Shown here piece by piece: positions 1,126 to 29,506 of a DNA stretch of 44,339 bases. A program made the position numbers and the translations under genes. Source of the DNA: a virus; the IMG/VR virus record IMGVR_UViG_3300045944_000135, positions 1 to 44,339 of that record; one strand, written 5' to 3'. Position 1 is the first letter of the stretch, and each line of letters begins with the position of its first letter. Under the pieces are notes generated by a model, which made no database searches, was not told the DNA's origin, and saw only the letters and a list, made by a program, of their open reading frames with translations.

Positions 1126-4100
1126 ATGGATTTCTATCAGATCCGTTCTCGAGAAACGAAAGATAAGGGTATGGAATTATATCCCGATTTCATTGTCGGA
1201 CGTTCTCAGGATCTGATGGTTCAAGGACGGACCTTTTATGCAATTTGGGATTCAGTAAAAGGTCTTTGGTCTCGCGACGAGTATGATGTCCAACGACTTG
1301 TAGATGAAGATCTAGAAGCCGAAGCTGATAAATTGCGAAAAGAAACAGGAATAAATTACATAGTAAAATACATGCGCTCATTTCAAAGTAATTCCTGGGC
1401 GCTATTCAAGAAATTCCTGGCGAATATCAGCGACAATAATCACCCTCTTGATTCGAAGATCCTTTTTGCAAATTCGGACGTAAAGAAAGCGGATTATGCA
1501 AGTAAAACGTTGAATTATCCCTTGGAAGATGGGGATATTTCAGCTTGGGACGAACTTGTGGGGACATTGTATTCGGTAGAAGAGCGAGCCAAAATCGAAT
1601 GGGCTATCGGATCCATCGTGTCTGGGGATTCGAAGAAAATTCATAAATTCTTTGTCTTCTATGGTCCCGCTGGATCCGGTAAGTCCACGATACTGAATAT
1701 AATTCAAAAATTGTTCGACGGCTATACTACTACCTTCGATGGAAAAGCTCTTGGACGTGACGGTTCAACCTTTGCCACAGAAGCCTTCAAGAATAATCCC
1801 CTGGTTGCTATTCAACACGACGGTGATCTGTCCCGACTTGAGGATAACACTCGGTTGAACTCGATTGTTTCTCATGAAGTAATGACGATGAATGAGAAAT
1901 ACAAGCCGAGTTATACTGCTAGAGCGGAAGCACTCTTGTTCATTGGCACCAACCAGCCTGTAAAAATTACCGATGCCAAATCAGGAATCATACGTAGACT
2001 GATCGATATTCATCCAACTGGTGTGAAGATTCCGATTAGGCACTATCATGCGTTGTTGAGTAAGATCGACTTTGAGCTAGGAGCTATCGCTCAGCATTGT
2101 CTGCGAGTATATTTGGAGATGGGCAGGAACTATTATAATGGTTACCGCCCACTCGAAATGATGCTGCAAACAGACGTCTTTTTCAATTTCATCGAAGCGT
2201 ATTACGACATATTCAAATCCCAAAATTACACGACCTTGAAGCAAGCGTATGGTCTCTACAAAGAGTTCTGCGAAGAGACCGGTATCGACCGACCGCTTCC
2301 TCAATACAAAGTTCGCGAAGAGCTTCGTGACTATTTTGACGAGTTCAAAGATCGAGGCGAAGTAAATGGAAAACAAGTTCGAAGTCTCTATTCCGGATTT
2401 AATGCTGAAAAGTTTAAGGTTCCAAAAGACAGTGATGAAGATCTGCCTGCTTATTCTCTGGTCATGGATGAAACTGAGTCGCTCTTTGATCTTGAGTTTG
2501 GTACACAACTCGCTCAGTACGCAAATATTCAGGGAGTGCCAGGACGCAAGTGGGAAAATGTGGAGACGACTCTTTCAGATATTGATACGTCGCGATTACA
2601 CTACGTAAAAGTACCTGAAAAACATGTCGTCATCGACTTCGATCTCAAACAGACAGACGGTCACAGTGGTCTTGAACGAAATTTGGAGGCGGCAAGCCAG
2701 TGGCCAGCGACCTATGCTGAGCTCAGCAAATCTGGAAGTGGCGTACATCTTCACTATGAGTACGATGGAAATCCACTAGATCTAGCACCCGTATATTCCG
2801 AGGGCATCGAGATCAAGGTCTTTACGGGAGACGCATCACTACGTAGGCAATTGACGCTCTGCAATGCGTGGCCTATTTCCAAGATCAGCAGTGGGCTCCC
2901 GCTTAAAAAGAAGAAGGAGCAGATGCTTAAGGCTAAGACGATTACAACAGAAAAGGGTCTTAGGGATCTAATCGAACGAAACTTGAAGAAAGAGATCCAT
3001 CCGGGAACCAAGCCATCTGTAGATTTCATAGCTCATATTCTCGAGGAGGCTTATGAATCGAAATTAAAATACGACGTCACCGATCTACGACCACGTATTC
3101 TCGCTTTTGCCAACAACAGTACCCATCAAGCCTCCACTTGCTTGAAGACGGTACAAACGATGAAGTTCCAATCCGAGCCGGAGCTGAATTCGGATGGTTC
3201 TGTGCAGGTGGACGACGATCGGATGGTTATCTTCGACGTCGAAGTTTATCCGAATCTATTCGTCATCTGTTGGAAATTTCGTGGCGAGGATACGGTTGTC
3301 AGGATGATCAACCCCTCGCAAGCGGAAGTCGAGGCCTTGACAAGGTTGAAATTGGTCGGTTTCTACAATCGTCGCTTCGACAATCATATTCTCTATGCCG
3401 CGGTCCTGGGTTACTCTGTCGAACAGTTGTTTGATCTAGCGCGAAAGATAGTCGAGGGCAATCGTAATGCTTACTTCGCGCAAGCCTACAATCTTTCCTA
3501 TAGCGACGTCTGGGATTTTAGTTCAGTTAAACAAAGCTTGAAAAAATTTGAGATCGATCTGGGTATCCATCATATGGAACTGGATTTTCCCTTGGACGAG
3601 CCCGTAGCTGAAGAAGATTGGTCACGAGTCGTCGAATATTGTGTCAACGATGTTCGAGCAACCGAGTCTGTGTTGGAAGATCGTTGGGAGGATTTCGTCG
3701 CTCGTCAGATCCTAGCTGAGCTTAGTGGGTTGACTGTTAACGATACGACACAAAGGCACACAGCGAAGATCATATTTGGAAACGACAAGAACCCGCAGCA
3801 ATATTTTGTCTATACCGATCTGAGTGAGGAGTTCAGTGGTTATACATTTGACGCTGGTCAAAGCTGGTATCGCGGTGAGAATCCCGGTGAGGGTGGGTAT
3901 GTCTATGCCGAGCCTGGAATATACACCAACGTTGCTCTATTGGACATTGCTTCTATGCATCCAACCTCAATTGAGATCCTTAATCTCTTCGGTAAATACA
4001 CAAGTCGATTCAGCGATCTCAAAAAAGCCCGGCTGGCTATCAAACATCGAGATTACGATCTAGCAAGGACGATGCTGAACGGCCGCTTGGCCCCCTTTCT

Positions 4101-4899
4101 GGAGAACGAAGATGGAGCAGAGAAGCTGGCTTATGCACTAAAAATAGTTATTAACATTGTCTATGGATTGACCTCGGCCTCCTTCCCCAACCCGTTTCGC
4201 GACCCTCGTAACAAAGATAATATCGTAGCCAAGCGTGGAGCTCTCTATATGATCGACTTGAAGAACTGGCTCAAAGACAACCACCATTCAGTTGTGCATA
4301 TCAAAACTGATTCGGTCAAGATTCCTTATGCCGTTGGTGGCGGCGAGCATGTTATCGAGCTTGTCAAAGAACACGGAGCTAAGTACGGCTATGATTTCGA
4401 GCACGAGATAACTTACGACAAACTGTGTCTTGTCAACGACGCTGTGTATATTGCTTGCAAAGATGGTAAGTGGACGGCTGTCGGTTCCCAATTTCAACAT
4501 CCTTACGTATTCAAGACATTGTTCTCCGGAGAAGAACTCGAATTCGACGACTTTTGCGAAAGTAAGAACGTGACCAAGGGAACGATGTATCTGGATCGAG
4601 AGGAACACGAAAAAGATGAAACGCTTAATTATCGTGATATGCGGCATATTGGGCGGTCTGGCTTATTCGTTCCTGTATTGGAAGGCGGCGGTACGCTTTT
4701 CCGGATGGCTGACGACAAGTACTACGCTGTCGCGGGCACTAAAGGCCACAAGTGGATCGAAGCGGAAATAGCTAAATCGATTCCAGACCTCAAGATCGAC
4801 ATGTCATATTTTGAGAAACTGAAAGATGAAGCCGTCAATACTATTCTCGAATTTGGTTCCTTCCAAGACTTCGTTAGGAGAGAAGATGCCACAACCTGA
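1126..4899 (+). CDS. Replicative fusion protein: SF3-type helicase, AEP primase, 3'-5' exonuclease and family B DNA polymerase
   Basis: A 1257-residue protein whose start, ATG 1126, follows AAGGGAGG; an upstream in-frame TTG at 1111 is less likely. Motifs in order: Walker A GPAGSGKST at 180-188 and FIGTNQP at 272-278, as in D5-like SF3 helicases; then AEP primase-like motifs DFD (504-506), SGSGVHLH (His541) and GIEIKV (Glu562); then exonuclease motifs DVE (704-706), NRRFD (to 752) and YCVND (838-842); then polymerase motif A DIASMHP (Asp940), motif B KIVINIVYG (1006-1014) and motif C KTDS (1060-1063). Family knowledge predicts unwinding, priming, synthesis and proofreading in one chain. The helicase precedes the primase, whereas AEP-D5 proteins usually have primase first. 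Motif A has His where family B enzymes usually have Tyr (SLYP). Assignment of the polymerase and exonuclease is strong; the primase assignment rests on three motifs. Confidence 0.88.
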   Translation: MDFYQIRSRETKDKGMELYPDFIVGRSQDLMVQGRTFYAIWDSVKGLWSRDEYDVQRLVDEDLEAEADKLRKETGINYIVKYMRSFQSNSWALFKKFLANISDNNHPLDSKILFANSDVKKADYASKTLNYPLEDGDISAWDELVGTLYSVEERAKIEWAIGSIVSGDSKKIHKFFVFYGPAGSGKSTILNIIQKLFDGYTTTFDGKALGRDGSTFATEAFKNNPLVAIQHDGDLSRLEDNTRLNSIVSHEVMTMNEKYKPSYTARAEALLFIGTNQPVKITDAKSGIIRRLIDIHPTGVKIPIRHYHALLSKIDFELGAIAQHCLRVYLEMGRNYYNGYRPLEMMLQTDVFFNFIEAYYDIFKSQNYTTLKQAYGLYKEFCEETGIDRPLPQYKVREELRDYFDEFKDRGEVNGKQVRSLYSGFNAEKFKVPKDSDEDLPAYSLVMDETESLFDLEFGTQLAQYANIQGVPGRKWENVETTLSDIDTSRLHYVKVPEKHVVIDFDLKQTDGHSGLERNLEAASQWPATYAELSKSGSGVHLHYEYDGNPLDLAPVYSEGIEIKVFTGDASLRRQLTLCNAWPISKISSGLPLKKKKEQMLKAKTITTEKGLRDLIERNLKKEIHPGTKPSVDFIAHILEEAYESKLKYDVTDLRPRILAFANNSTHQASTCLKTVQTMKFQSEPELNSDGSVQVDDDRMVIFDVEVYPNLFVICWKFRGEDTVVRMINPSQAEVEALTRLKLVGFYNRRFDNHILYAAVLGYSVEQLFDLARKIVEGNRNAYFAQAYNLSYSDVWDFSSVKQSLKKFEIDLGIHHMELDFPLDEPVAEEDWSRVVEYCVNDVRATESVLEDRWEDFVARQILAELSGLTVNDTTQRHTAKIIFGNDKNPQQYFVYTDLSEEFSGYTFDAGQSWYRGENPGEGGYVYAEPGIYTNVALLDIASMHPTSIEILNLFGKYTSRFSDLKKARLAIKHRDYDLARTMLNGRLAPFLENEDGAEKLAYALKIVINIVYGLTSASFPNPFRDPRNKDNIVAKRGALYMIDLKNWLKDNHHSVVHIKTDSVKIPYAVGGGEHVIELVKEHGAKYGYDFEHEITYDKLCLVNDAVYIACKDGKWTAVGSQFQHPYVFKTLFSGEELEFDDFCESKNVTKGTMYLDREEHEKDETLNYRDMRHIGRSGLFVPVLEGGGTLFRMADDKYYAVAGTKGHKWIEAEIAKSIPDLKIDMSYFEKLKDEAVNTILEFGSFQDFVRREDATT

Positions 4900-5353
4900 T
4901 AACACGGTACTGATGGAAGGAGTCCGGATCATCTTCCGTAACTTCTCCGGCAAAGAGGGCCAGTACAATCGAGAAGGTGATCGTAATTTCGCAGTCTTGC
5001 TCGACGACAACGTGGCCAACGCAATGGCTGAAGACAACTGGAATGTCAAATGGCTCCGCCCCCGTGATGAAGACGAGGAGGAGAACCCGCAGGCCTATCT
5101 GCCGGTTTCAGTTAACTTCAAAGGCCGTCCGCCACGCATCGTCTTAGTAACTTCTCGTGGTCGCACCCATCTAGATGAGGACTCAGTCGAGATGCTCGAT
5201 TGGGCTGACATCATCAATGTCGACTTGATCGTTCGTCCATACGAATGGCAAGTCAATGAGAAGAGTGGGATCAAGGCTTACCTGCAGAGTATCTACGTGA
5301 CAATTGAAGAAGATCCTCTGGAGATAAAGTATTCTGAACTAGATCAAGCATGA
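4886..5353 (+). CDS. Putative ssDNA-binding protein
   Basis: A 155-residue protein, with ATG 4886 chosen because TTAGGAGAGAAG precedes it; a longer in-frame ORF from 4826 would overlap the polymerase by 74 bp without such a site. The actual overlap is 14 bp. The sequence begins with a beta-rich stretch (VLMEGVRIIFRNFSGKEGQ, then NFAVLLDD), has a central VSVNFKGRPPRIVLV strand pair, and an acidic C-terminus. This pattern is compatible with an OB-fold ssDNA-binding protein. The position directly after the polymerase fits that role. No diagnostic motif settles it, so the function is inferred mainly from context and composition. Confidence 0.62.
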   Translation: MPQPDNTVLMEGVRIIFRNFSGKEGQYNREGDRNFAVLLDDNVANAMAEDNWNVKWLRPRDEDEEENPQAYLPVSVNFKGRPPRIVLVTSRGRTHLDEDSVEMLDWADIINVDLIVRPYEWQVNEKSGIKAYLQSIYVTIEEDPLEIKYSELDQA

Positions 5354-9190: not shown

Positions 9191-9365
9191 ACCGAAAACG
9201 GAAATTGACAGACGTCTGGATAGACACGAAAAAGCAATCGATACGATGGCCCATTGGTTGACACAAGTGCCGGGAGCTTTTGGCACAGCCGATTACGAAG
9301 GAATCAGAGCGATCCTAGATGGAACTGAAACCACATCAGAAACTAGCACTGGCCCAGCTGAGTAA
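9183..9365 (+). CDS. Small coiled-coil-like protein
   Basis: A 60-residue protein from ATG 9183; an upstream in-frame start at 9144 would add a 39-bp overlap without a ribosome binding site. [20 protein letters not shown] has the heptad-like spacing of a short coiled coil, followed by a Thr/Ser/Glu-rich tail. It overlaps the helicase start by 47 bp, so the two may be translationally coupled. Confidence 0.6.
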
Positions 9366-10503
9366 CGGGCGCATCTTGTGGGGTGGCGTAGGCAGCGGCA
9401 AGTCCCGAGTAGCAGTTAGTTATTATATTGAGAGGGAGCAGCCGCGCGACGTCTATGTGATCACAACTGCCAAGAAACGGGAGAGCCTGGACTGGGAGAA
9501 GGAGTTTGCACAATTTGCGATCGGCAAAGAAAAGGATGCAACGGTTACTGGTTTACTAACAGTAGATAGCTGGAATAATATCGATAAATATGCTGAGGTT
9601 AGCGATGGCTTTTTCATCTTCGACGAACAAAGAGTTGTCGGCTCTGGACGCTGGGTTCGCTCATTTCTTAAGATTGCTAAGCAGAATCGATGGATATTAC
9701 TGTCCGCAACTCCCGGCGATACCTGGTTAGACTACATACCTGTCTTTGTCGCCAACGGCTTCTACAAGAACCGTACCCAGTTCAAGCGCGAGCACGTCGT
9801 CTACGCCTCCTACGTCAAGTTCCCGAAGGTAGAACGCTATCTGAACGAGAGTCATCTGCGCAAATTGCGAAGTAAGATCCTCGTCCACATGCCCTATCCG
9901 AAACTGACTGTTCGGCACTCAGTAACTAAATACGTGCATCATAACGAGCAGTTGCTGCAGAACGTGCTCAAGAATCGCTGGCATATCTACCAAAATCGGC
10001 CAATCAGGGACGTAGCCGAGCTGTGGGGCGTGATGCGACGGGTGATCAACAGCGATCCCAGTCGTCTCAGGACGCTGAGAGAGCTTCTAAGCGAACATCC
10101 TAAGATAGTGGTATTCTATAACTTCGACTACGAGTTAGAGCTTCTGAGAGGCTTACAGAGCCTTACAGCGGTATCTGAGCTGAATGGTCACAAGCATGAA
10201 GAGATACCAACAGCTAGTTCTTGGGCCTATCTGGTTCAGTATGTAGCGGGTGCACAGGCGTGGAATTGTGTAGAAACTGATACAATTTGCTTCTATAGTC
10301 TTACCTATTCTTACAAAAACTACGAGAATGCGCACGGACGAATCGACCGTTTAAACACGCCTTTCATCGATTTGTACTACTATGTCCTGAAAAGTAAGAG
10401 CTTCGTTGATAGCGCAATCTGGAAAAGTCTGAAATCGAAGCAGAATTTCAATGCGACAAATTATGACTTACAAATGGTAAAAATGGGGAAGATGGGTAAG
10501 TGA
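9319..10503 (+). CDS. SF2 (DEAD/SNF2-like) DNA helicase
   Basis: A 394-residue protein from ATG 9319. Walker A GGVGSGKS (22-29), motif Ia-like [23 protein letters not shown] in place of DEAD/DEAH at 102-105, and motif [11 protein letters not shown] at 129-136 define an SF2 helicase core. The second RecA-like half contains [33 protein letters not shown] and [10 protein letters not shown], matching the arginine-finger region of SNF2-like phage helicases. It probably assists replication, recombination or promoter access. It is followed by a 410-bp gap that may hold the origin. Confidence 0.88.
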
Positions 10504-10914: not shown

Positions 10915-11412
10915 ATGGATGAACAATGGAGTCAAATAGACCTTTTTCCCGAGTATAGCGTCAGTAATCTGGGTCGTATTCGTGCTGACAAGTCGGGAAG
11001 AATCCTAGCTTTGTCTGAAAATCAATATGGTCTGCTACAAGTGGGGTTGATGCGAGATGGGGTTCAACACCATAGATCTGTACCATTATTGGTGGCGAAA
11101 GCCTTTATTCCTCCGCCTCTTGGTTCTTTCGACACTCCTATTAATCTAGACGGTGATCGTCATAATAATCGGGTAGACAATCTAGTCTGGCGTCCCCGCT
11201 GGTTTGCTATCAAGTATAATCGACAATTCAAGTATCCTTATGAGCACTCGATCGATGCACCAATCGTGGATATAAAAACTGGTAGAGTAAGTGCAAACTC
11301 ATTCGAATGTGCAAAAAGGTATGGTTTGCTCGAGCAAGACTTGGTTATGTCAATCTTAAATCGTACCTATGTTTGGCCCACATATCAGGAATTTGGCATC
11401 TTGGAACTTTAG
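10915..11412 (+). CDS. NUMOD4/HNH-like DNA-binding protein
   Basis: A 165-residue protein from ATG 10915 after GGGGAGTA. The N-terminus (WSQIDLFPEYSVSNLGRIRA) is a NUMOD4 motif, normally a DNA-recognition piece of homing endonucleases. LDGDRHNNRVDNLVW, followed by RPRWFAIKYNRQF, is the HNH-3 core. Where many family members have His before the LDGD, this one has Asn (PINLDGD), so nuclease activity is doubtful. The C-terminal part (FECAKRYGLLEQDLVMSILN) resembles a NUMOD1-like helix-turn-helix. It could act as a site-specific DNA-binding regulator rather than as a free-standing endonuclease. Confidence 0.8.
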   Translation: MDEQWSQIDLFPEYSVSNLGRIRADKSGRILALSENQYGLLQVGLMRDGVQHHRSVPLLVAKAFIPPPLGSFDTPINLDGDRHNNRVDNLVWRPRWFAIKYNRQFKYPYEHSIDAPIVDIKTGRVSANSFECAKRYGLLEQDLVMSILNRTYVWPTYQEFGILEL

Positions 11413-11495: not shown

Positions 11496-11813
11496 GTGAA
11501 TGAAGGTCAATATCAGACTAAAGTAATCAAGCGACTTGAGCGTATGTTTCCGGGGTGTGAAATTTTAAAAAATGATGCTAGCTACAAGCAAGGTATTCCG
11601 GATATCATTATTCTTTGGAATAGCTTTTGGGCTTCGTTAGAGATAAAAATTGGTCCCTCGTCAGGTAGACAACCCAATCAAGACTACTATATCGAGAAGC
11701 TAAGTACTATGTCGTTTGCCGCTTATATCTACCCGGAATGTGAAGAGGAGGTTTTGAATGCGCTTCAACAGGCATTTAAATCTCCAAGGCGAGCACGCGT
11801 TTCTCAGTCCTAG
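11496..11813 (+). CDS. VRR-NUC-type PD-(D/E)XK nuclease
   Basis: A 105-residue protein; the GTG at 11496 is the start because the ATG two bases upstream is followed directly by TGA. NEGQYQTKVIKRLERMFPGC is the usual N-terminal helix, and GIPDIIILWNSFWASLEIK gives the catalytic D(10-20)ExK pattern (PDII and EIK). The length matches stand-alone VRR-NUC proteins of phages, which are structure-specific DNA nucleases thought to resolve branched DNA before packaging. It overlaps a second nuclease-like gene by 56 bp. Confidence 0.82.
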   Translation: MNEGQYQTKVIKRLERMFPGCEILKNDASYKQGIPDIIILWNSFWASLEIKIGPSSGRQPNQDYYIEKLSTMSFAAYIYPECEEEVLNALQQAFKSPRRARVSQS

Positions 11814-12315
11814 TTCCTATCACTGGATTCACTACACTCCAGATCGATTAATTGACCGCTGGACTTCAGCTCAGGCCGGAGCTTATGGCAACATGCAGCA
11901 CGACTATGCTCAGAGAGAAATTGAAGCAGGTAGAAAGTCAGATCTTGTTGGAACTGTAGGTTTGTACATTAACGATGCTATTCAGTATCGGATGACGACC
12001 GAACAAGTTCTTTTTTATTCTGAGAATTGTTTTGGTACTGCTGATGCTATATGTTTTCGATATAATACTCTTCGAATTCATGATCTGAAAACAGGAGTAT
12101 ATCCTGGTTCAGTTCATCAACTTGAAATCTATGCTGCACTATTTTGTCTTGAATACGACAAGGATCCATTCAAGATCAAGATCGAGTTGCGCATTTATCA
12201 AGATAATGAAGTTATCGTCTATGATGCTGATCCAGAGGACATTATGTTCATTATGGAAAAGATTCAGGAATTCGACAGAATACTCAGCCATCGAAGACTA
12301 GAGGAGGAGTCGTGA
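11758..12315 (+). CDS. Cas4/RecB-like PD-(D/E)XK exonuclease
   Basis: A 185-residue protein from ATG 11758. FGTADAICFR, then LRIHDLKTGV and HQLEIYAALFCLEY are the GxxD, DxK and QxxxY motifs of the RecB/Cas4 nuclease group (PD-(D/E)XK superfamily). The N-terminus (NLQGEHAFLSPSSYHWI) is the segment that starts this phage family. A recombination or DNA-end-processing role is likely. Because of the 56-bp overlap and the GTGA overlap with the next gene, it is probably co-translated with the VRR-NUC and the RNA-polymerase-like gene. Confidence 0.82.
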   Translation: MRFNRHLNLQGEHAFLSPSSYHWIHYTPDRLIDRWTSAQAGAYGNMQHDYAQREIEAGRKSDLVGTVGLYINDAIQYRMTTEQVLFYSENCFGTADAICFRYNTLRIHDLKTGVYPGSVHQLEIYAALFCLEYDKDPFKIKIELRIYQDNEVIVYDADPEDIMFIMEKIQEFDRILSHRRLEEES

Positions 12316-14975
12316 TTCGTACCAAAGAACAAGAACCATCTTTTGCGCATTACGGCACTCCCCGTCATTCCGGCCGTTATCCTTGGGGATCTGGTCAACC
12401 CGAAACTACTCGTAATAGAAGTTTTCTCGATTCGGTTAGAGCACTTGAAAACAAAAATATGACACCAGCCGAAATTGCTCAGGGTATGGGTATTTCGGTG
12501 AAACAACTTAGAGCTCGTAAATCAATAGCTACCGCTCAGGAAAGACAAGCCAAAATTCTGCAAGCTCAGCGATTAGATGAAAAAGGTTGGGGAGCTTCTG
12601 AGATTGGTCGACGCATGGGTATCAATGAATCTTCAGTTCGAGCTTTACTTGCTCCTGGTGCGAAAGATAAAGCTGATGCAATACAAACTACAGCTAATCT
12701 ACTTAAGGACAAAGTTAAAGAACACGAATTGATTGATGTTGGTCGAGGTACAGAAAGTTTGCTTGGTATTACCAAGACCCGACTTGATACTTCTGTTGAG
12801 GCTTTAAAAGAACAAGGATATGAAATTCACAATGTTAAGGTTCTACAAGCGGGTACCGGTAAGTTCACAAATATGAAAGTATTGGCTCCACCTGGTACTC
12901 CTTGGTCTCATGTTCAACAGAATAAAGCTAAGATCAAACCAGTTATTGATGCATATTCCGAAGACAATGGTCGAAGCTTTATCGGTTTGCAACCACCAAT
13001 TTCCGTGAACTCGAGACGTATTCGGGTAAATTATGCGGAGACTGGTGGCGACAAACTTGATGGTCTTATCTATGTTCGCCCAGGTGTAAAAGATTTGTCT
13101 TTGGGTAACAGTGCAAATTATGCCCAGGTACGCGTCATGGTTGATAAAACGCATTATCTTAAAGGCATGGCTGTATACAAAGAGGATCTACCTGCAGGTG
13201 TAGATCTGGTTTATAATACAAACAAAAGTAATACGGGTCGCAAAAAAGATGCTATGAAAGCTATAGAGGACGATCCGGAAAATCCATTTGGTTCTATCGT
13301 ACATCAGGTACATGGGCCAGATGGTAAAGTTACATCGGCGATGAATAAGGTTTACGAAGAAGGTGATTGGGATAAGTGGTCTGCTAATTTCTCATCACAG
13401 ATGCTTTCAAAACAAAATCCCGATTTCGCTAAACAGCAGCTTGGTGTGACATTTGAACGTCGGCTTAGAGAACTTGATGAAATCAACTCACTTACGAATG
13501 CGACAGTTCGTAAAGATCTTCTTCTTAAATTCGCCGATAGTGCAGATGCTTCAGCAGTGCATCTCAGCGCGGCGGCTTTGCCGCGTACGTCTGCCAAAGT
13601 CATACTGCCAGTCACGTCTGTAAAACCTACTGAAATCTATGCACCAAGTTATCGAGATGGCGAACGGGTAGCGCTTATTCGTCACCCACATGGTGGAACT
13701 TTTGAAATTCCTCAACTGACTGTAAACAATCGCAATCGTGCAGCTCGCAAAATTATTGGTACTGCAGCAAGAGATGCTGTCGGTATTAATCATGAAGTAG
13801 CAAAGCGATTGTCGGGTGCGGATTTCGATGGTGATCATGTACTTGTTATTCCTAATAAAGGTAAAATAAAAACTACTGCTGCTCTTGACGGATTAAAAGA
13901 TTTCGATCCGCAAGTCTACAAGATACCAAAAGATTCTCCCATCCCTCGTATTAAACCAAATCGTAAACAAAATGAGATGGGTAAAATTTCAAATCTAATT
14001 ACCGATATGACTCTTCAAGGTGCTAGTCATGATGAGGTAGCTCGCGCAATTCGGCATTCGATGGTTGTTATCGATTCAGAAAAACACAATCTTGATTTCC
14101 GTCAATCTGAAAAAGATAACGGTATTGCGAGTTTGAAAGAGAAGTATCAGGGTGGAAAGAGAGCTGGTGCTGCCACTCTGATTAGTAGAGCTGGTGCGGA
14201 GACTCGTATTCCTGAGCGTGTTCCAAGACCAGCTCGCAAAGGTGGACCCATTGACCCGGTTACAGGAAAGAAAGTTTTTGAACCAACGGGACGAATGGTT
14301 CCGGATCGTAGAACAGGAAAGTTAGTTGAGAAGAAAGAAGTACATGATCGCTTGGCCATAACCGATGATGCACTTACTCTTGTTGGAACTCATCCTACAA
14401 GTATGGAACTCCTTTATGCTGAGCATTCTAATAGACTAAAGGCTATGGCTAATAGTGCAAGAAAGCAAGCAGTAGCTATTAAAGGTGCGGAGCGTTCTCC
14501 TTCTGCAGCAAAGACCTATAAGAATGAAGTTGATTCTCTAAACTCAAAACTTAATAATGCTAAACGAAACGCTCCCCGTGAAAGACAAGCCCAGCGTCTA
14601 ACAGAGACGCATGTCTCTCAGTTACGCCAGGCTAATCCAGAGATGCAACCCGAAGACGTCAAGAAGATCAGGTTTGCAGCACTAGAAGAGTACAGAAACA
14701 GGACTGGTGCAGGGAAAGATAGGATTAAGATAACACAAAGTGAATGGGATGCTATTCAAGCTGGTGCTATTTCTAAAACTAAACTAGAAGAGATCCTTAG
14801 GAATAGTGATGCGGATCGTGTTAAAGAGCTAGCTCTACCAAAGCAGAAGATCAAGATGTCATCCACTAATAGACTTCGTGCACAGTCCATGTTAGCTGCA
14901 GGCTTCACTCAACAAGAAGTAGCAGACGCACTGGGTGTTGGCTTGACTACACTCAAGGTAAGTCTCAATGAGTGA
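12312..14975 (+). CDS. Large DFDGD-motif protein, RNA-polymerase-like, with three helix-turn-helix segments
   Basis: An 887-residue protein starting at GTG 12312 (GTGA overlap; GAGGAGG upstream). RLSGADFDGDHVLVIP has Asp504, Asp506 and Asp508 in the order of the metal-binding NADFDGD motif of RNA polymerase beta-prime. It is preceded by RHPHGGTFEIP and KPTEIYAPSYRDGE. Helix-turn-helix segments lie at about 50-75, 90-112 (GASEIGRRMGINESSVRALL) and 858-887 (TQQEVADALGVGLTTLKVSL). The N-terminus carries HYGTPRHSGRYPWGSG, a short motif I recall at the start of other phage proteins. By family it may be a two-barrel RNA polymerase like those of YonO and crAss-like phages, used for phage transcription or injected with the DNA. 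The second barrel is not proven from sequence alone. Confidence 0.72.
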   Translation: MIRTKEQEPSFAHYGTPRHSGRYPWGSGQPETTRNRSFLDSVRALENKNMTPAEIAQGMGISVKQLRARKSIATAQERQAKILQAQRLDEKGWGASEIGRRMGINESSVRALLAPGAKDKADAIQTTANLLKDKVKEHELIDVGRGTESLLGITKTRLDTSVEALKEQGYEIHNVKVLQAGTGKFTNMKVLAPPGTPWSHVQQNKAKIKPVIDAYSEDNGRSFIGLQPPISVNSRRIRVNYAETGGDKLDGLIYVRPGVKDLSLGNSANYAQVRVMVDKTHYLKGMAVYKEDLPAGVDLVYNTNKSNTGRKKDAMKAIEDDPENPFGSIVHQVHGPDGKVTSAMNKVYEEGDWDKWSANFSSQMLSKQNPDFAKQQLGVTFERRLRELDEINSLTNATVRKDLLLKFADSADASAVHLSAAALPRTSAKVILPVTSVKPTEIYAPSYRDGERVALIRHPHGGTFEIPQLTVNNRNRAARKIIGTAARDAVGINHEVAKRLSGADFDGDHVLVIPNKGKIKTTAALDGLKDFDPQVYKIPKDSPIPRIKPNRKQNEMGKISNLITDMTLQGASHDEVARAIRHSMVVIDSEKHNLDFRQSEKDNGIASLKEKYQGGKRAGAATLISRAGAETRIPERVPRPARKGGPIDPVTGKKVFEPTGRMVPDRRTGKLVEKKEVHDRLAITDDALTLVGTHPTSMELLYAEHSNRLKAMANSARKQAVAIKGAERSPSAAKTYKNEVDSLNSKLNNAKRNAPRERQAQRLTETHVSQLRQANPEMQPEDVKKIRFAALEEYRNRTGAGKDRIKITQSEWDAIQAGAISKTKLEEILRNSDADRVKELALPKQKIKMSSTNRLRAQSMLAAGFTQQEVADALGVGLTTLKVSLNE

Positions 14976-27402: not shown

Positions 27403-28284
27403 TTGACTGCCCTACAATGGGACCAGGTTGGTGAACGTCTGTACGAGGTAGGCGTTGATCATGGGGTTCTGTATCTTCCAGACGCAGGCGGTATGTACGT
27501 CGGTGGAGTCGCCTGGAATGGCCTCACAACGGTCACCGAATCACCCTCTGGAGCCGAGCCTTCACCGCAGTTTGCGGACAATATCAAGTATCTAAACCTG
27601 ATCTCGGCTGAGGAATTCGGCGGAACGATCGAAGCATTCACTTATCCGGAGGAGTTCGCTCAGTGTGATGGTACGGAACTTCCTTCGCCAGGTGTTGCAG
27701 TTGGTCAGCAGGGTCGAAAGATCTTCGGTCTGTGCTATCGAACACGTGTTGGTAACGATATCGATGGTACAGATCATGGCTACAAGTTGCATCTACTTTA
27801 TGGTTGTCAGGCGTCTCCATCCGAAAAAGCTTATGCCACGATTAATGATTCGCCAGAGGCAATCGCCTTTAGTTGGGAAATTACTACTACGCCAGTTCCG
27901 GTTACTGATATGAAGCCAACAGCTCTACTAGTAATTGATTCGACACTAGTCGATGCAGCCGCTCTAGCTCTTCTTGAGGAGCAGCTGTATGGTGATGTCG
28001 ACACTGAGCCGAATCTGCCACTTCCCGATACTGTTATCGGTATGTTTGCTGGAACTATTACCAGGGTTGATATGGGAGTTTCTACAAATCAGCCAACATA
28101 CTCGGTCGGTACTCATATTGTCACTATTCCAGCAGTTACCGGTGTTGCCTGGAAGATTAATGGCGAGGATGTAACTTCTGGTGCTCAGCCCGCAATGACT
28201 ACCGGTCAGAGTTCTACTGTTACAGCTCATGCTATGCCGGGTTATCTTCTTGACGGCGATACTGATTGGACGTTCGACTACTAA
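27403..28284 (+). CDS. Major tail tube protein with C-terminal Ig-like domain
   Basis: A 293-residue protein; the start is TTG 27403, 10 bp after a GGGAAAGG site, and no ATG fits. [20 protein letters not shown], then GVLYLPD and [20 protein letters not shown] are found again in the gene at 28871. [14 protein letters not shown] and [14 protein letters not shown] lie mid-chain. The C-terminal 70 residues ([20 protein letters not shown], ending [10 protein letters not shown]) form an Ig-like domain related to the capsid C-terminus. It should build the tail tube. Confidence 0.88.
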
Positions 28285-28870: not shown

Positions 28871-29506
28871 ATGACCGCTCTCGTTTGGGATCAGCCAGGC
28901 GAACGAGTTTACCAAACTGGTATCGATCGTGGAGTTCTCTATCTTCATGACGGAACTGCAGTAGCTTGGAATGGATTAACTGATGTTGAAGAATCTAGTA
29001 ATTCCGAATCAAAGTCCTTTTATCTCGATGGGGTAAAATATTTGGAAATTTTGACTCCGGGGGACTTTTTGGGTAAACTAAAAGCTTTTACTTATCCCGA
29101 TGAATTCGATGCCGTTAACGGTCTTGCTGAGGTCGCCCCTGGGTTGACGTATTACGAACAACCATCGAAAAGCTTTGATTTGTCCTATCGGACGAAGATA
29201 GGTAACGATTTAGACTCAGAGTATGGTTATAAGATTCACATTCTTTATAATGTAATCGCAAATCCTGATCCATACACGTTTACCACAGTTAAAGATACTG
29301 GAGATGCTGTCGAATTCGGTTGGACTTTGACTGGAACGCCTCCGAAGATTGAGAAATTTAGACCGACGGTTCATGTTTCGATCGATTCGCTAAAAACGCC
29401 TGCGAATATCTTGCAAACTATAGAAAAAACCTTATATGGATCAAACATAGCCAATCCCAGTCTTCCATCTATTCAAGATCTTACTGAATATTTTGGAGGA
29501 TTATAA
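28871..29506 (+). CDS. Second tail tube paralogue, lacking the Ig-like domain
   Basis: A 211-residue protein from ATG 28871 after GAAAGGGGGTGGC. It parallels the 27403 product: MTALVWDQPGERVYQTGIDR, GVLYLHDGTAVAWNGLTDVE, LKAFTYPDEFDAVNG and FDLSYRTKIGNDLDSEYGYK. It stops at LPSIQDLTEYFGGL, where the first paralogue continues into its Ig-like domain. It may form a minor tube section, a tail-tip ring or an alternative tube. Confidence 0.85.
   Translation: MTALVWDQPGERVYQTGIDRGVLYLHDGTAVAWNGLTDVEESSNSESKSFYLDGVKYLEILTPGDFLGKLKAFTYPDEFDAVNGLAEVAPGLTYYEQPSKSFDLSYRTKIGNDLDSEYGYKIHILYNVIANPDPYTFTTVKDTGDAVEFGWTLTGTPPKIEKFRPTVHVSIDSLKTPANILQTIEKTLYGSNIANPSLPSIQDLTEYFGGL

Follow-up and report, generated by a model that had tools for sequence, protein, structure and literature searches.

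HelPrimPolB is a group of family B DNA polymerases (PolB) that carry an SF3 helicase and a PrimPol fused at the N terminus and was named in 2020 by Kazlauskas et al. (PMC7544198). That paper describes motif C as divergent and traces the first notice of the fusion back to a paper from 2016. A full-length member, GP55 of the lactococcal phage 1706 (YP_001828703), was purified by Zhang et al. 2025 (Nucleic Acids Res., PMC12205980). GP55 dimerises and exhibits UTP/dTTP-dependent helicase, RNA primer synthesis, 3'-5' exonuclease and DNA polymerase activities; it copies ssM13 de novo, with 5'-CCAAC-3' as the priming site (PMC12205980). According to the same study, a new helical domain (aHD) that follows the PriS-like domain and replaces the PrimPol helix bundle is required for priming, Y655 and F667 being essential, and more than 1000 homologues of GP55 were found (PMC12205980).

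Results and Discussion

The DNA analysed here, referred to as the window, comprises 44,339 nucleotides of the IMG/VR virus record IMGVR_UViG_3300045944_000135. Its reading frame at 1126-4899 on the + strand is open without an internal stop and codes for 1257 amino acids. The ATG at 1126 is the point from which the relatives align, with a TTG at 1111, 15 bp upstream, as a possible alternative start. Five domains were assigned in the order SF3 helicase, AEP (PrimPol-like) primase, small helical domain, 3'-5' exonuclease and family B polymerase:

1126-4899, + strand: HelPrimPolB-type multifunctional replicase, 1257 aa, ATG start
1126-2445, + strand: SF3 helicase domain, approximately residues 1-440 (DUF5906, Pox_D5 and PHROG matches, conservation)
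2473-2910, + strand: AEP (PriS/PrimPol-like) primase domain, approximately residues 450-595 (AlphaFold, Foldseek, PF09250)
2923-3195, + strand: helical domain equivalent to the aHD of GP55, approximately residues 600-690 (model helices, residue mapping, PMC12205980)
3208-3795, + strand: 3'-5' exonuclease domain, approximately residues 695-890 (motifs, model, fold match)
3823-4875, + strand: family B polymerase domain, approximately residues 900-1250 (AlphaFold, Foldseek, profile)

An earlier, sequence-only reading of this DNA had listed helicase, primase, exonuclease and polymerase motifs along the chain, and all of them were recovered in the order given there. The helical domain between AEP and exonuclease was absent from that reading.

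The protein belongs to phrog_4210, which matches residues 1-1254 with 1943 bits, far above chance level. Among isolate phages, 428 records contain a relative, and in 252 of these the match extends over at least 80% of the protein; Gordonia and Rhodococcus phages come closest, with approximately 61% identity. In viral contigs 176 matched stretches with a relative were found, of which 80 were retained, the nearest showing 84% identity. The listed members from Gordonia, Arthrobacter, Streptomyces, Microbacterium and Rhodococcus phages are mostly annotated as 'DNA primase/polymerase' or 'DNA polymerase', and among the matches listed a Faecalibacterium phage member is annotated as 'helicase/polymerase'. 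The actinophage 'DNA primase/polymerase' proteins are colinear with the window protein over the full length at approximately 50-61% identity. With the HelPrimPolB group it shares the N-terminal SF3 helicase and PrimPol on a PolB as well as the divergent motif C, and comparison with the description of that group in PMC7544198 revealed no difference. The PrimPols of phage NrS-1 and plasmid pRN1 (ORF904) have the same AEP fold and likewise combine PrimPol and helicase in one chain. Unlike the window protein, however, they place the AEP first, use one catalytic centre to prime and extend, and lack PolB and exonuclease (general knowledge and PMC12205980).

The sequence-only reading had considered the helicase-first order, the attached proofreading polymerase and a His in polymerase motif A as unusual. 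The comparison lends no support to this view: order and added polymerase are defining traits of HelPrimPolB, and all three features are constant in this known group, of which at least 252 phage records match the greater part of the protein. The window protein is an actinophage-type metagenomic member of a widespread, named and biochemically characterised group and is not new.

Judged from its motifs, the N-terminal domain is an SF3 helicase with Walker A (GPAGSGKST, 180-188), a Walker B-like HDGD (231-234), LFIGTNQP (271-278) with sensor-1 N276, and an Arg finger (R290/R291). Pfam DUF5906 matches at 7.2e-12, Pox_D5 weakly, and PHROG phage primase-helicase families match at 4e-25 to 3e-16. Residues G180, K186, T188, D232, N276, R290 and R291 are invariant (90/90) in an alignment of 90 full-length sequences that comprises the window protein, phage 1706, other isolates and contigs and is colinear end to end. 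As a separate observation, Streptomyces phage Rainydai carries, upstream of an intact full-length replicase, a 166-aa gene (L004:2986-3483) annotated as DNA primase/polymerase, which matches helicase residues 135-341 with 25.6% identity and looks like a partial extra copy of the helicase.

Single-sequence searches of the PDB and Pfam did not clearly detect the AEP or the polymerase, and a sequence profile built for the AEP region retrieved no relative from the PDB. The AEP was detected by fold comparison and by Pfam scans of relatives. Residues 440-690 were modelled with AlphaFold from an input alignment of 61 relatives (mean pLDDT 88.3), and the 10 PDB matches obtained with Foldseek at E <= 0.001 are all AEPs, PrimPols of NrS-1 and pRN1. 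Superposition of residues ~449-595 on the NrS-1 PrimPol with a structural aligner gave a Z score of 9.7 and an rmsd of 3.1 over 138 residues, the Z score being well above unrelated entries for this region. Pfam Prim-Pol (PF09250) matches 46 of the 61 relatives by sequence, but not the window protein itself. The motifs DFD (504-506), SGSGVHLH (536-543, with H541/H543) and GIEIKV (560-565, with E562/K564) are located in this domain, and D504, D506, H541, H543, E562 and K564 are invariant in the alignment. At the level of the model the AEP fold is confirmed; the sequence-only reading had made its claim depend on residues 480-640 adopting this fold, and they model well (pLDDT 88), with PDB matches at Foldseek E <= 0.001 exclusively to AEP primase-polymerases.

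At the place expected for the aHD, the model contains helices. Two positions of this domain align with the essential residues of GP55: Y649 with Y655 (82 Tyr and 8 Phe in 90 sequences) and F661 with F667 (Phe in 90/90). PDB matches to this part alone (Z up to 7.8, mostly designed helical repeats) were set aside as chance-level for helical bundles.

The exonuclease exhibits ExoI DVE (704-706), ExoII NRRFD (748-752) and ExoIII YCVND (838-842). The polymerase carries motif A DIASMHP (940-946, with D940 and H945), motif B ALKIVINIVYG (1004-1014) and motif C HIKTDS; D704, E706, D752, D842, D940 and D1062 are invariant in all 90 sequences. The AlphaFold model of residues 640-1257 (pLDDT 89.4) retrieved family B polymerases with exonuclease in Foldseek, among them 9N, Pol alpha and Pol II at E values of 1e-14 to 2e-16, and a profile of the polymerase domain matched E. 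coli Pol II at 1.5e-6. The PolB fold is confirmed in the predicted structure. With AEP and polymerase both supported by models, the four-domain reading proposed from sequence is upheld.

Comparison with GP55

Over the full length, the window protein and GP55 share 39.7% identity, with 30.5% in the helicase, 52.7% in the AEP, 36.3% in the helical domain, 43.6% in the exonuclease and 46.7% in the polymerase. Both proteins have the same five-part order, the same catalytic residues, His in motif A and KTD in motif C. All seven residues mutated in GP55 that could be mapped are conserved: K189, D509, Y655, F667, D712, E714 and D949 correspond to K186, D506, Y649, F661, D704, E706 and D940 in the window protein. 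The two differ in host group, the window being nearest to actinophages and GP55 originating from a lactococcal phage. Identity drops to 30.5% in the helicase domain, so that the fuel nucleotide (UTP/dTTP in GP55) and the priming site may differ between the two proteins.

Integrity of the Gene and its Active Sites

In total, 91 full-length single-frame reading frames were obtained, the window sequence being counted twice, which corresponds to approximately 89 distinct related loci; in three further related contigs the replicase gene is cut by the contig end. An assembly chimera or a frameshift artefact could in principle have joined two or three separate replication genes. Listeria phage P35 does contain polymerase and AEP-motif primase as separate adjacent genes, and in one contig (L042) the frame is broken near residue 906-909. 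Against this stand the 91 single reading frames, window included, their colinear alignment from end to end and the presence of the same single gene in isolate phages. Because the full-length gene is conserved across independent isolates, we rejected this explanation, the probability of which is negligible. The sequence-only reading would have abandoned the fusion if separate genes had emerged; one gene, conserved in approximately 89 independent loci, was found instead.

The catalytic residues of every domain are invariant (90/90), and each of the five segments, the AEP segment included, shows a dN/dS between ~0.01 and 0.18. These values were taken from pairs of close relatives, as dN/dS between the window and its nearest contigs had reached saturation in exonuclease and polymerase. 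Purifying selection acts on all five segments; this is a real gene, and every part of it is maintained.

It could also be argued that the fusion is real but one active site, for example that of the polymerase, is dead here and the protein acts as a helicase-primase only. The first Asp of motif C is replaced by Lys and the steric-gate Tyr of motif A by His, which would fit such a loss. However, His945 is found in 90/90 sequences and KTDS instead of DTDS in motif C, a deviation missed in the sequence-only reading, likewise in 90/90. GP55 is among them in both cases and is an efficient enzyme that copies the 7.2 kb M13 (PMC12205980). Strong purifying selection on all domains also speaks against a dead polymerase, which we therefore regard as very improbable. 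The distant unfused relative in Listeria phage P35 (L095:2653-6477) has Tyr in motif A (DVASMYP) and NTD in motif C. As His and Lys are constant in 90 sequences including the active GP55, they go along with the fused group and are no sign of a dead enzyme. A more speculative thought, to which we assign a low likelihood, is that His, at the sugar-discriminating Tyr position, and Lys form an altered active site that aids the takeover of very short RNA primers or the tolerance of ribonucleotides, and that the actinophage branch may in addition use another fuel nucleotide and priming site than GP55.

Two of these loci deserve a separate remark. In P35 the polymerase gene is immediately followed by a separate gene for the AEP-motif primase; this arrangement may show how the parts looked before they fused or after they split. 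L042:5177-8974 is the only related contig with a replicase split by an internal frame break, which falls between exonuclease and polymerase and is either a sequencing error or real.

Proposed Function

The gene is almost certainly the phage's own DNA replicase and a HelPrimPolB orthologue. By analogy, the protein would have the same four activities as GP55 and would copy the genome of its own phage. In the proposed mechanism the N-terminal SF3 motor would unwind or displace the strand, AEP and the following helical domain would lay down short RNA primers, and the C-terminal PolB would extend these and proofread via its exonuclease, with probable assistance from the separate ssDNA-binding protein encoded directly downstream and from an SF2 helicase. 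The idea of a near-complete replication machine, put forward from the sequence, is supported by the experimental finding that the full-length relative GP55 combines the four activities (PMC12205980). The protein adds to the near-complete one-chain replicases of phages that can be compared with GP55. Such proteins may be of use as reagents for primer-free DNA amplification; as a mechanism, the one-chain replicase had been described and demonstrated before.

Genomic Surroundings and Host

The following genes lie around the replicase, and the virion genes come after the RNA polymerase gene:

103-612 and 593-1108, + strand: two uncharacterised small upstream genes (phrog_4695, phrog_4678)
4886-5353, + strand: phage ssDNA-binding protein, next gene (PF24083, 2.6e-67; phrog_4787)
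9319-10503, + strand: SF2 helicase, probable accessory gene (phrog_62, 8.6e-52)
10915-11412: HNH nuclease
11758-12315: exonuclease-family protein
12312-14975, + strand: single-chain RNA polymerase (phrog_4291)

An SF2 helicase and an ssDNA-binding protein had been named as the only other replication-like genes nearby. Both are present, but the list was incomplete, as an exonuclease-family gene, HNH nucleases and a single-chain RNA polymerase are found as well. The reading frame of the ssDNA-binding protein opens at 4826, with the likely ATG at 4886. Genes for ssDNA-binding protein, SF2 helicase, RNA polymerase and exonuclease-family protein are common to the window and phage 1706, and the four products share 37-41% identity with their phage 1706 homologues (38% for the ssDNA-binding protein with gp66, 39% for the SF2 helicase with gp67).

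Homologues of the two small upstream genes (103-612 and 593-1108) were found in 71 and 78 of the fetched loci, respectively, and lie directly before the replicase in the loci inspected. Gordonia phage Pherobrine shows this arrangement, too. They are candidates for partners.

The genome itself is absent from the isolate phage collection. In a megablast search of window positions 1-25000 against isolate phages only part of the terminase gene matched, with 72% identity at the DNA level to a Gordonia phage; the host is thus probably an actinobacterium.

The 887-aa product of 12312-14975 matches the PHROG family annotated as 'RNA-dependent RNA polymerase' (phrog_4291) with 1194 bits, contains GADFDGDH and shares 37% identity with gp75 of phage 1706. 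It resembles the single-chain two-barrel RNA polymerases of the YonO kind (cf. PMC5467207); the phage may thus carry a one-chain replicase together with a one-chain transcriptase. Among the remaining genes, the neighbours 27403-28284 and 28871-29506 (+ strand) both match the major tail protein family phrog_2645, and phrog_2152, a family of unknown function, occurs in two copies near the contig end (40442-41242 and 43147-44070, + strand).
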